64,000 bases of DNA, taken from NCBI GenBank assembly GCA_913061265.1, contig CAJXVS010000005.1, positions 281,006 through 345,005 on the forward strand, written 5' to 3'. The notes under the pieces were generated by a model that was not told the origin of the DNA, did not search any database, and saw only the letters and a program-made list of their open reading frames with translations. The position numbers and the translations under genes were made by a program. Positions 15,457 to 19,219 of this stretch are shown one piece after another (the stretch's first letter is position 1; every line of letters begins with the position of its first letter). This DNA is from an uncultured Halobacteriovorax sp. GTDB taxonomy: Bacteria > Bdellovibrionota > Bacteriovoracia > Bacteriovoracales > Bacteriovoracaceae.

Positions 15457-15505
15457 TACGCATAAGTTACGCATTTAGTTCTTGACTTACGCATCGACTA
15501 CGCAT
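15457..15505 (+). promoter_or_regulatory. Four direct TACGCAT repeats, candidate LexA operator
   Basis: TACGCAT occurs at 15457-15463, 15468-15474, 15488-15494 and 15499-15505. Within each pair the start-to-start distance is 11 bp, and the pairs are 20 bp apart. The second pair fills the spacer between the -35 and -10 boxes of lexA. LexA usually represses its own gene, so this is the natural operator. The head-to-tail layout with an 11-bp period recalls the alphaproteobacterial GTTC-N7-GTTC box rather than the palindromic boxes of other groups. Confidence 0.6.
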
Positions 15506-15510
15506 TAAAT
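15482..15510 (+). promoter_or_regulatory. lexA promoter, probably giving a leaderless mRNA
   Basis: TTGACT (15482-15487) and TTAAAT (15505-15510) are separated by 17 bp. The ATG of lexA follows the -10 box after six bases, so transcription would begin at or within a base of the start codon. No Shine-Dalgarno is present. Confidence 0.55.
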
Positions 15511-15516
15511 GGGTTT

Positions 15517-16191
15517 ATGGGAATTACAAAAAAACAAAAAGAAGTTTTCGATTACATTGCTGAATATTCACTAGTGAACGGCTATGCACCTACTCAAAAA
15601 GAGATAAAGGATCATTTTGATTTTAAGTCTTTCGGGTCGGTTCAACGCTATATCAAATATCTTGCGGATGCAGGATATATTGAAACGGACTGGAATGCTC
15701 GCCGAGGAATTACATTACTAGGGGGTCTCGGTGATTCAAGTTCAGAGATTGATAACTACCCTGCAGGTTCTTCAGTTTCATCACTACATACCGTGGACAG
15801 CAATTCTATTCCTCTTTTAGGTTCGATTGCTGCTGGTAATCCTATCGAGGCGATAGAGTCAGCAAGCGATATGATTGATGTCCCTTCTTATATGATCAAG
15901 TCTCACTCCGCTCGTCACTTTGCCTTGAATATTGATGGTAACTCGATGATAGAAGATGGCATCCTCCATGGGGATATAGTCGTCTGCCGCCAGCAACAAG
16001 ATGCAAGGCGAGGAGAAACGGTAGTTGCCGTCATTGATGGTGAAGCCACACTCAAACATTACTTTCCTGTAGGACAAAGCATTGAGCTTCGCCCTGCTAA
16101 TAAAGACTACCAACCCATTGTTGTGGATAAGAACTCAGGTGACTTCTCTATAGCTGGTATCATGGTAGGGCTTCTTAGAAGTTATATCTAA
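15517..16191 (+). CDS. lexA: LexA repressor
   Basis: 224 residues, slightly longer than the usual 200-210. The winged helix-turn-helix occupies residues 1-70 (TKKQKEVFDYI, TQKEIKDHF, SVQRYIKYLADAGYI). The S24 autoprotease follows: cleavage bond Ala106-Gly107 in SIAAGNP, catalytic Ser143 in GNSMIEDG and Lys180 in EATLKHYF. It represses DNA-damage genes until RecA-stimulated self-cleavage. It heads an operon with dinB (2-bp gap) and menEH. The recognition-helix neighbourhood (KSFGSVQRYIKYL) is compatible with a diverged operator. A 20-residue Ser/Asp-rich linker precedes the cleavage site. Confidence 0.95.
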   Translation: MGITKKQKEVFDYIAEYSLVNGYAPTQKEIKDHFDFKSFGSVQRYIKYLADAGYIETDWNARRGITLLGGLGDSSSEIDNYPAGSSVSSLHTVDSNSIPLLGSIAAGNPIEAIESASDMIDVPSYMIKSHSARHFALNIDGNSMIEDGILHGDIVVCRQQQDARRGETVVAVIDGEATLKHYFPVGQSIELRPANKDYQPIVVDKNSGDFSIAGIMVGLLRSYI

Positions 16192-16193
16192 CA

Positions 16194-17366
16194 GTGGGGT
16201 TGGAAATAAAGACTCTCCAGCCCCAAACAAAACAACGAAAGATCATTCACGTAGACATGGACTGCTTTTTTGCAGCTGTGGAGATGCGTGACAATCCAGC
16301 CTTAAGAAATATACCCATCGCTATTGGAGGCTCTCCTACAGGAAGAGGAGTTCTCTCAACCTGCAACTATGAAGCAAGAAAGTTTGGACTACGCTCTGCT
16401 ATGAGTAGCGCTCAGGCCCTTAAGCTTTGCCCTCAAGTCACCTTTGTTAGAGGAAGCTTCGATAAGTACAAGAAGGCCTCAGCTCAGATGAGAGAGATCT
16501 TCGAGCGCTTTACAGACTTAGTGGAACCCTTAAGCTTAGATGAAGCTTACCTCGATGTGACAGACTGCGAGCTCTTTAGGGGTTCTGCTACCTTAATCGC
16601 GCAAGAGATAAGGCGTCTTATAAAGGCAGAGATAAACCTGACAGCGAGCGCTGGCGTCGGGCCTAATAAGTTTATAGCCAAAGTCGCAAGCGACTGGAGA
16701 AAGCCTGATGGGCTTTTTGTTGTCACTCCTGATGAGGCCTTTAATTTTGCACAGGCCCTTCCTGTTAGGAAATTTCCAGGAGTTGGTAAAGTCACTGAGG
16801 CAAAGCTTCATGACCTTGGTGTTAAGACAGGGCTAGATATTAGCCGGCATGAACTCTTGATAAACCAATGCTTTGGTAAGTCTGCTAAAGGCCTTATTAG
16901 AAGATCTAAAGGGATCTGCTTTAATAGTGTTTGCACTCATCACGAAAGAAAGAGCTTAAGTTGTGAAAGGACCTTTCGTAGTGATCTTGAAACTTTTCAG
17001 GAATTAAAAGACCAGATTCCCCTCCTCTTAGACGAGGCCGTCCATAGGGTCATGGCCTGGAAAGAGAAGAAGGGTCCTGAAACCCTACCCTATAATATGT
17101 TTGTAAAGGTTAAGTCCTCTGATTTTACTCAGGTCACTCAAGAGAAGAGCTTTCCTTTTGAGTTTTTTGACGAGGTGTGGCAAAAGGGTGAAGTTTCTAC
17201 AATTTTATTAGATGAACTTACCAAGCTTTTAGAAATGGCGTATTCAAAAGGACTAAACACCGTAAGGCTTATTGGAATGGGATTTAAATTTAAATCTCCC
17301 TTCCGCACTCATGAAGATGAGTTAATGAGGCCTTATCAACTAGAACTTTTTAAGGAAGCTGTTTGA
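16194..17366 (+). CDS. dinB: DNA polymerase IV, Y family
   Basis: 390 residues. The Y-family catalytic residues are in HVDMDCFFAAVE (near residue 22) and SLDEAYLDVT (near residue 115); the helix-hairpin-helix KFPGVGKVTEAKL follows, then the little-finger domain. The C-terminus holds a sliding-clamp binding motif, QLELF, six residues from the end region. It performs error-prone lesion bypass. The start is GTG two bases after lexA and lacks a Shine-Dalgarno, so it is probably translated by coupling to lexA and induced with it. The stop overlaps the TTG start of menEH (TTGA). Confidence 0.95.
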   Translation: MGLEIKTLQPQTKQRKIIHVDMDCFFAAVEMRDNPALRNIPIAIGGSPTGRGVLSTCNYEARKFGLRSAMSSAQALKLCPQVTFVRGSFDKYKKASAQMREIFERFTDLVEPLSLDEAYLDVTDCELFRGSATLIAQEIRRLIKAEINLTASAGVGPNKFIAKVASDWRKPDGLFVVTPDEAFNFAQALPVRKFPGVGKVTEAKLHDLGVKTGLDISRHELLINQCFGKSAKGLIRRSKGICFNSVCTHHERKSLSCERTFRSDLETFQELKDQIPLLLDEAVHRVMAWKEKKGPETLPYNMFVKVKSSDFTQVTQEKSFPFEFFDEVWQKGEVSTILLDELTKLLEMAYSKGLNTVRLIGMGFKFKSPFRTHEDELMRPYQLELFKEAV

Positions 17367-19219
17367 AGCAAATCATTGAATGCCCAACACTAAAACAAAT
17401 AGTCGAAGCTTTTCACTCTGAAGAGACGGTCTTCCTTTGCCCAAAATTAAGCAAAAATGAAAAAGAATATTACAGCACCATCTTTAAGCAGTTTGCTCCT
17501 AAAGGAAGTGTTTGCTTCTTAAGCAGTGGCTCTAGTGGCAATCCAAGGATTCACGCTCATTCATGGGTTAACCTAAAGAAGAGGGCCTGTGCTCAAGCCA
17601 TTGAATTAGGACTTGATAAAGATTCAGTTTATTTGAACCCACTTCCCCTTTATCACTTAGGCGGCTTTATGCCTGTGCTTCGCTCATTATTGAGTGAAAG
17701 CTCGCAGGTTATTAAATCAAAAGATCACTCGTTAGAAGAAGCCTTGTTAAAACTAAAGCCTACTCACGTAAGCATGGTTCCAACTCAGTTGGCTCAACTA
17801 GTTTTAAACAGAGTAGAGCTCGGCTTCTTAGATACCATCCTTCTTGGCGGAGCAGGTTGCTCTGAATCTATTTTAGAGGAAGCTAAAGATCTTGCTTACC
17901 CTATCAGGGCCTGTTACGGGATGACTGAAAGTGCCAGTTTTTTCTCGATCGGTAAAAAAGAAGAGTTCTTAAAGGACGCTAAAGTTAATCTTTACCTAAT
18001 GGATAATTGGAGCGCTTTTACTAGCTCTAATGGCAGGCTCACTATCGAATCTGATGAGATGTATCTAGGATCAATTGGGCCCCTAGGGTTTATTGAATCC
18101 AAGGGAATACTTCCGACCTTTGACTTAGGCGAAGTAGAAGCTCCTATTATTAAAATCTTTGGTAGATCAGACCTTGTTTATAAAAGTGGTGGAGAAAAGG
18201 TTGATCCTCTAGAGATAGAAAGAAAACTAGAATCAACAGAGCTCTTTTCAAATATCGTTATTATCCCTAAGAAAAGCGAAGTCTGGGGGAATATAACAAC
18301 AGCTTTTGTGAGCCCTTTCAAAAGAGGTCGTGACTACTCACTTTTAACAGAGCACTTACCTCCTCATCAGAGGCCGAAGTTCTTTTTCCCTATGCCTGAG
18401 AGCACGGGGATAAAACCTAAAAGAAGTGAATTAAAAGAAATAGTTGAAAGACAAATTCATCAAGATAAGAAACTTCCGCGCATGGCCTTTATCCATGGGT
18501 TTATGGGGAGCTCTAATGACCTAAAAGAACTCGGCTCTTCGTTGAGTGAGTTATGCTGTCCTGTGTTTTGGAAGCTTCCCTTTCATGGAGAGAATAAGAC
18601 ACCCATTGATTTCAATGAAACGGTTGAGTTCTATATAGAAAAAATAAGAAGCGAAGACATTGATGCTCTTTATGGCTATTCGATGGGTGGCCGTTTAGCG
18701 ACTGCAATTGCTGAAAGGCTTGAGTCACTCGGAGAACCTCTTACGGCCCTCGTTCTCGAATCTAGTCATCCTGGTTTAAAGACTAAAGAAGAAAAACAAA
18801 AACGAATCACAGAGGATCAAACTCTTTTTGGAAGAATGCCAACTGAACCTCAGGCCTTTTTTGAAAAATGGTACTCTGCTCCTCTTTTTGGAGATTTTAA
18901 AGATACTGACCTTGGAAAGATCTCCATCAAAGAGATGCAAAGACGTTGGAACCCTAGCGAGTGGAAAAAAACCCTAGATTTATTATCAACGGGAAAACAA
19001 AAGAACTTTCAAGAGTATCTCCTTAACTCAATCACACCTATTCTCTATCTTTGTGGAGAACAAGACTTAAAATATAAAAGCCTAGCTCTTCAGTTAAAAA
19101 ATCAAGGGCCAAGATCGCTTAAGGTTAAATGCTTAGAAAAAGGCTTTCATAACCTCCACCTGAACAACCTAGACCAGGTGAAACAACCTGTAGAAGAGCT
19201 TCTAAGTTCTTTAAATTAG
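17363..19219 (+). CDS. menEH: MenE-MenH fusion: o-succinylbenzoate-CoA ligase and SHCHC synthase
   Basis: 618 residues. Residues 1 to about 370 are a short adenylate-forming ligase lacking the usual N-terminal 60-100 residues: phosphate loop SSGSSGNPR near 54, YGMTESASF, DLGEVEAP, IFGRSDLVYKSGGEKVDP, and the late Lys in GIKPKRSEL. From Met374 on, an alpha/beta hydrolase of MenH type follows: FIHGFMGSSND, nucleophile GYSMGGRLA, ESSHPGL, CGEQDLKY and His in GFHNLHL. The first half activates o-succinylbenzoate with CoA; the second removes pyruvate from SEPHCHC. The TTG start lies in the dinB stop, so it is read from the lexA operon, 10 kb from the rest of the men genes. Confidence 0.88.
   Translation: MKQIIECPTLKQIVEAFHSEETVFLCPKLSKNEKEYYSTIFKQFAPKGSVCFLSSGSSGNPRIHAHSWVNLKKRACAQAIELGLDKDSVYLNPLPLYHLGGFMPVLRSLLSESSQVIKSKDHSLEEALLKLKPTHVSMVPTQLAQLVLNRVELGFLDTILLGGAGCSESILEEAKDLAYPIRACYGMTESASFFSIGKKEEFLKDAKVNLYLMDNWSAFTSSNGRLTIESDEMYLGSIGPLGFIESKGILPTFDLGEVEAPIIKIFGRSDLVYKSGGEKVDPLEIERKLESTELFSNIVIIPKKSEVWGNITTAFVSPFKRGRDYSLLTEHLPPHQRPKFFFPMPESTGIKPKRSELKEIVERQIHQDKKLPRMAFIHGFMGSSNDLKELGSSLSELCCPVFWKLPFHGENKTPIDFNETVEFYIEKIRSEDIDALYGYSMGGRLATAIAERLESLGEPLTALVLESSHPGLKTKEEKQKRITEDQTLFGRMPTEPQAFFEKWYSAPLFGDFKDTDLGKISIKEMQRRWNPSEWKKTLDLLSTGKQKNFQEYLLNSITPILYLCGEQDLKYKSLALQLKNQGPRSLKVKCLEKGFHNLHLNNLDQVKQPVEELLSSLN

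Follow-up and report, generated by a model that had tools for sequence, protein, structure and literature searches.

The heptamer TACGCAT occurs four times within 49 bp upstream of a lexA gene in the window, the whole 64,000-nucleotide stretch of DNA that was analysed, and this arrangement raises the question of whether the repeats serve as the operator of the adjacent LexA. We consider it highly probable (about 94%) that they do, as a predicted direct-repeat operator between the -35 and -10 elements that would also control the SOS genes of the family Bacteriovoracaceae.

The repeat in the lexA promoter

Exact copies of TACGCAT were re-found at 15457-15463, 15468-15474, 15488-15494 and 15499-15505 (offsets 0, 11, 31 and 42), which bears out the sequence-only reading of two head-to-tail pairs with an 11-bp period. 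No other 7-mer in the 64-kb window reached four copies within 49 bp, and 40 windows simulated with a first-order Markov model contained no four-copy 7-mer in such a span. The pattern TACGCATN4TACGCAT was found exactly twice in the 3.97-Mb genome, both times at the lexA promoter.

The 3' pair, TACGCAT-N4-TACGCAT with half-sites 11 bp apart (15488..15505, + strand), is the candidate core operator, and the 5' pair of the same form (15457..15474, +), 31 bp upstream, is a putative auxiliary site. The core pair lies between a -35 element, TTGACT (15482..15487, +), and a -10 element, TTAAAT (15505..15510, +), which are separated by 17 bp. The pair had been described as filling this spacer exactly; it does fill the spacer, but at 18 bp it extends by one base into the -10 element. 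With about 6 nt between the end of the -10 element and the ATG, the lexA transcript is predicted to be leaderless, here and in most of the family; the operator pair was located at about -29 from the ATG in 52 of 58 Bacteriovoracaceae lexA promoters of the non-D type (D referring to LexA residue 44, as described below).

The lexA gene (15517..16191, +) encodes a 224-aa protein that scored 170.5 bits against TIGR00498 (cut-off 110.95) and matched both PF01726 and PF00717. Ala105-Ala106-Gly107, Ser143 and Lys180 were invariant in 28 sequences (alignment A1). The protein is a canonical LexA, with a winged-helix DNA-binding domain, an S24 autoprotease domain, an equivalog-level score, the Ala-Gly bond and the Ser/Lys dyad. 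Its recognition helix (helix 3, residues 38-45, SFGSVQRY) is encoded at 15628..15651 (+). The dinB gene for DNA polymerase IV (16194..17366, +; PRK02406, 431.7 bits against a cut-off of 256) begins 2 bp 3' of lexA, and the two genes presumably form one operon. The N-terminal part of the ORF that follows dinB (17363-19219) matches models of MenE, and the C-terminal part models of MenH; the ORF is apparently a MenE-MenH fusion, with both matches below the NCBIfam cut-offs.

Conservation of the direct repeat upstream of lexA

In all 30 upstream lexA regions, a 5-mer recurred exactly and head to tail at a spacing of 11 bp, compared with 0-8 regions for the other spacings from 5 to 30. Among 105 distinct Bacteriovoracaceae LexA loci, nearly all promoters had the form TTGAC|TTACGC-N5-TTACGC|-10 or its TACGG or TACGT version, and in most relatives the TTGAC directly preceded the repeat. 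The D-type operators often mixed TACGG and TACGC half-sites. Other families of the Bdellovibrionota carried TTACGCATAACTTACGC or TTACACATAACTTACAC at the same promoter position, and a TAC-N8-TAC pair was found at 138 of the 145 distinct Bdellovibrionota LexA loci. A few loci, L228 and L231 among them, had no repeat within 200 bp.

These comparisons redefine the candidate operator in two respects. The 11-bp direct repeat is kept across the family and the phylum, but the conserved unit is TTACGC-N5-TTACGC rather than the TACGCAT pairs first proposed. Of the four copies, only the 3' pair is widely conserved; the 5' pair is limited to the genus and was found, at the 31-bp offset, in G001 and G002 alone, the two genomes of the same genus. 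This genus-specific second pair could stem from a duplication of the first, and one might suppose that the whole repeat is a product of chance or of slippage without a regulatory role. The probability of this is negligible, as the half-sites are conserved across many genera and families amid unrelated flanking DNA, with only the bare half-sites retained and the spacers variable, and they recur at unrelated SOS promoters; for the core pair, conservation already refutes the idea.

Operator bases and recognition-helix residues

To describe the relation between repressor and operator, we numbered residues as in the window LexA and counted half-site bases in TTACGC. Positions 40 and 44 of the recognition helix covary with bases 5 and 6. 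When position 44 was Arg, Lys or Asn, base 6 was C and almost never G; when it was Asp, base 6 was mostly G or T; and in the single case of His (L245, N44H), base 6 was A, giving TTACGA. With Gly at position 40, base 5 was G in 232 of 236 half-sites, and with Asn or Phe it was A in all 36, as in L253 (G40N), which has TTACAC. By alignment, positions 40 and 44 would correspond to Asn41 and Glu45 of E. coli LexA, which are among its DNA-contacting residues (PMC3091678).

One comparison was natural and near-isogenic. The LexA of L243 (SLGTVQDYLVRLERQG...WNARRG) is paired with TTACGG and those of L236 and L240 (SLGTVQNYLVRLERQG...WNARRG) with TTACGC; the helix and wing differ by N44D alone, and both half-sites change from C to G. 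Tree-based independent-pair tests yielded 2-3 supported pairs, which were concordant, with none in the opposite direction in the main tests, and stayed below significance because the supported pairs were too few. Within the D clade, base 6 covaries with residues 59-62 of the wing as well. Mutual information over all columns of the DNA-binding domain did not set positions 40 and 44 apart, since clade markers score as high, and the natural single-residue contrasts were therefore used instead.

The predicted SOS regulon

In the genome from which the window derives, boxes with at most one mismatch were found at lexA (two pairs), at recA, at an imuA-imuB-like cassette and at two promoters without a convincing gene. 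The recA box is TTGACTTGCGCACAACTTACGC, accompanied by two more TTACGC; imuA was named by its appearance and its place before an imuB-like ORF, having no Pfam match. Two one-mismatch sites, L042 and L045, both lie inside ORFs, look like chance matches and were rejected. A scan with two mismatches was uninformative in this genome (90 matches compared with 69 for the reversed control), and matches were accepted only at one mismatch or fewer or in a TTGAC context.

Two promoters of this genome, each ahead of a small ORF, were observed. At G000:C4:81679 (L309; L307/L308), a perfect promoter-operator conserved in the genus precedes a short ORF, MHTG..FKSE.REIRGPP, of 26-34 aa, which may represent a small protein or RNA induced in the SOS response. 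At G000:C6:129404-129452 (L046/L337/L338), two operator pairs 32 bp apart, in a lexA-like arrangement, precede a small unannotated ORF, with a divergent carboxylesterase gene upstream.

We also scanned 59 relatives for TTGACTTACGCN5TTACGC with up to two mismatches. The 19 genomes with a TTACGC-type LexA gave 65 matches, compared with 6 for the reversed control, and 18 other genomes of the family gave 4 compared with 5 (all summed over genomes). As identified by Pfam, the genes 3' of the box encode RecA, IMS/DinB, UvrA, S24/UmuD, SRAP and a DnaE-type polymerase, the dnaE2 box being in a family other than Bacteriovoracaceae. The D-type genomes showed the corresponding shift: exact TACGGAN5TACGGA occurred 44 times in ten of them and not at all in ten R/K-type genomes, a figure that does not amount to 44 independent sites, since of the 15 occurrences in G136 about ten are part of a dispersed repeat. 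The D-type TACGG operators stand at recA, umuD(C), dinB, SRAP and a radical-SAM gene. In G136 (L385-L396), these ten or so sites are located at the end of the repeat; one copy in G136 and one in a second genome, G025, adjoin HNH-endonuclease ORFs (L388:335-1189, -; L369:1518-2402, +), and the repeat may be a mobile element that is present in many copies and controlled by LexA.

All 11 R/K-type genomes read had the box at the recA promoter, and the 8 genomes with no detected LexA all lacked it there. Against this pattern, G024 (99% complete) keeps a TTACGC recA box (G024:C19:388386, L310), yet its assembly yielded no LexA. A common operator at lexA, recA and translesion polymerase genes is a mark of an SOS regulon under LexA; here it was found at lexA, recA, dinB, umuD and imuA, and also at uvrA and SRAP. 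The sequence-only reading had named conservation in relatives as one point on which it could fall, and on that point it stood: the repeat is kept at lexA and recurs at recA, dinB, uvrA, umuD, imuA and SRAP.

A different DNA-repair regulator, such as a second S24 or HTH protein, might bind the repeats, with lexA merely one of its co-regulated targets. Binding by LexA is so far a prediction, and UmuD-like S24 proteins do exist in the family; these, however, have just one S24 domain, are 126-168 aa long and showed no match to a DNA-binding domain. The operator bases track helix-3 residues of LexA at DNA-contacting positions, including the case in which residue 44 is the sole helix difference, and the recA boxes are missing where no LexA was found. 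We therefore regard another regulator as very improbable and LexA as the predicted ligand of the repeats.

Comparison with the Bdellovibrio box

The LexA box of Bdellovibrio bacteriovorus has been reported as a palindrome, TTAC-N3-GTAA (PMC8565304), and LexA of the window might likewise recognize this palindrome, the direct repeat being incidental. The palindrome is present in most lexA promoters of the genomes that we take to be Bdellovibrionaceae (family code f6). In the window lexA promoter, however, neither TTAC-N3-GTAA nor an inverted half-site partner was found, and no TTAC/GTAA inverted 3 bp apart was evident in the Bacteriovoracaceae operators read. Moreover, L254, which has N4 in place of N3, and L264, which has no palindrome, both retain TTAC-N7-TTAC. 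Recognition of the palindrome is thus very improbable, and the direct repeat remains the preferred candidate operator.

A Bdellovibrionaceae-like lexA promoter, L248, reads TTGACTTACATATAATTTACACTGTAATTTCATATGTAAG. In promoters of this type, TTAC-N3-GTAA is the centre of a TTAC-N7-TTAC followed by mirrored GTAA half-sites. The direct repeat is common to nearly the whole phylum sample, while the palindrome is not, and we infer that the Bdellovibrio palindrome arose secondarily, where two direct repeats overlap. The two systems belong to the same phylum and share the TTAC half-site core and the position of TTAC-N7-TTAC in the -35/-10 spacer; they differ in that the Bdellovibrio box is reported as palindromic and has A at base 5 (TTACA) with the helix SFNSVQN. 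The TTAC-N3-GTAA box named in the sequence-only reading agrees with the published one, but the view that only TTAC half-sites are shared was too narrow, since in Bdellovibrionaceae the lexA promoters also have TTAC-N7-TTAC, overlapping the palindrome. The one Bdellovibrionaceae-like recA promoter read, that of G041, had no box, which fits the title of the 2005 paper by Campoy et al., as cited in PMC8565304.

Comparison with other direct-repeat LexA boxes

The alphaproteobacterial LexA box, known from Caulobacter and others, is the direct repeat GTTC-N7-GTTC (PMC8565304, PMC9578287). It resembles the operator described here in being non-palindromic, with head-to-tail half-sites, an 11-bp period, a canonical LexA and an SOS regulon, so that the likeness in period drawn by the sequence-only reading holds for the architecture; the half-site differs (GTTC there, TTAC(GC) here), as does the helix (KSGIHRL compared with SFGSVQRY). 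The Balneolaeota box TTACACATATTTTWTACATA is also a direct repeat and was verified by EMSA (PMC7739468). It shares TAC half-site cores and a regulon of lexA, recA, polymerases IV and V, a radical SAM protein and an SOS peptidase, but it belongs to another phylum and its cores are 13 bp apart in the printed consensus, compared with 11 here. The Synechocystis LexA site is CTA-N9-CTA (PMC3091678). Direct-repeat boxes are described as having several independent origins, and papers on Verrucomicrobia, Patescibacteria and Acidobacterium have been cited in this regard (PMC7739468). The architecture is therefore not new, TTACGC being a variant of what is known from Alphaproteobacteria and Balneolaeota. 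The TTACGC motif itself is likely, though not certainly, new; no paper on LexA in Bacteriovoracaceae was found in a literature search that covered mostly open-access papers.

Among 80 cross-phylum lexA loci, picked by similarity to the LexAs studied here, 64 had 11-bp repeats. Head-to-tail repeats of TTTCGCC, TTCGG, TTTCTA and TTACGC at this period precede lexA in Acidobacteriota, Myxococcota, Gemmatimonadota, Omnitrophota and Patescibacteria (L083, L085, L088, L090, L094, L097, L132, L142 and others). Outside the phylum, LexAs with a VHKH helix accompany TTCGC repeats and those with VHEH accompany TTCGG; G was found with E44 in six of six cases and with K44 in none of nine. We lean slightly towards a broader reading, in which 11-bp direct-repeat operators would be the common form, and no rare exception, in a large LexA group (Bdellovibrionota, Acidobacteriota, Myxococcota, Gemmatimonadota, Patescibacteria and Alphaproteobacteria), read by a simple helix-3 code. 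A basic residue or Asn at position 44 would specify C at base 6 and an acidic one G; base 3 would be A or T according to whether position 43 is Gln or His, and base 5 G or A according to whether position 40 is Gly or Asn. Whole regulons would then have been rewired by changes of single residues, and the Bdellovibrio palindrome would be two overlapping opposite direct repeats.

Proposed mechanism and biological meaning

In the proposed scheme, the two winged-helix domains of a LexA dimer would sit head to tail on TTACGC-N5-TTACGC, with the half-sites one helical turn apart. As these lie between the -35 and -10 elements, bound LexA would block RNA polymerase and repress lexA-dinB. Upon DNA damage, RecA-stimulated self-cleavage at Ala106-Gly107 would lift the repression. 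The same site may govern recA, dinB, uvrA, umuD, imuA-imuB and SRAP in Bacteriovoracaceae. The auxiliary pair, 31 bp (about three turns) upstream, would be a genus-specific site, probably for a second dimer that may act cooperatively with the first and tighten autorepression.

The analysis supplies a candidate SOS box and regulon for the Bacteriovoracaceae predators, for which none was found in the literature searched, and it offers another reading of the odd Bdellovibrio LexA box. It also provides a natural and testable case in which a repressor and its whole regulon may shift their DNA specificity together through one residue of the recognition helix.
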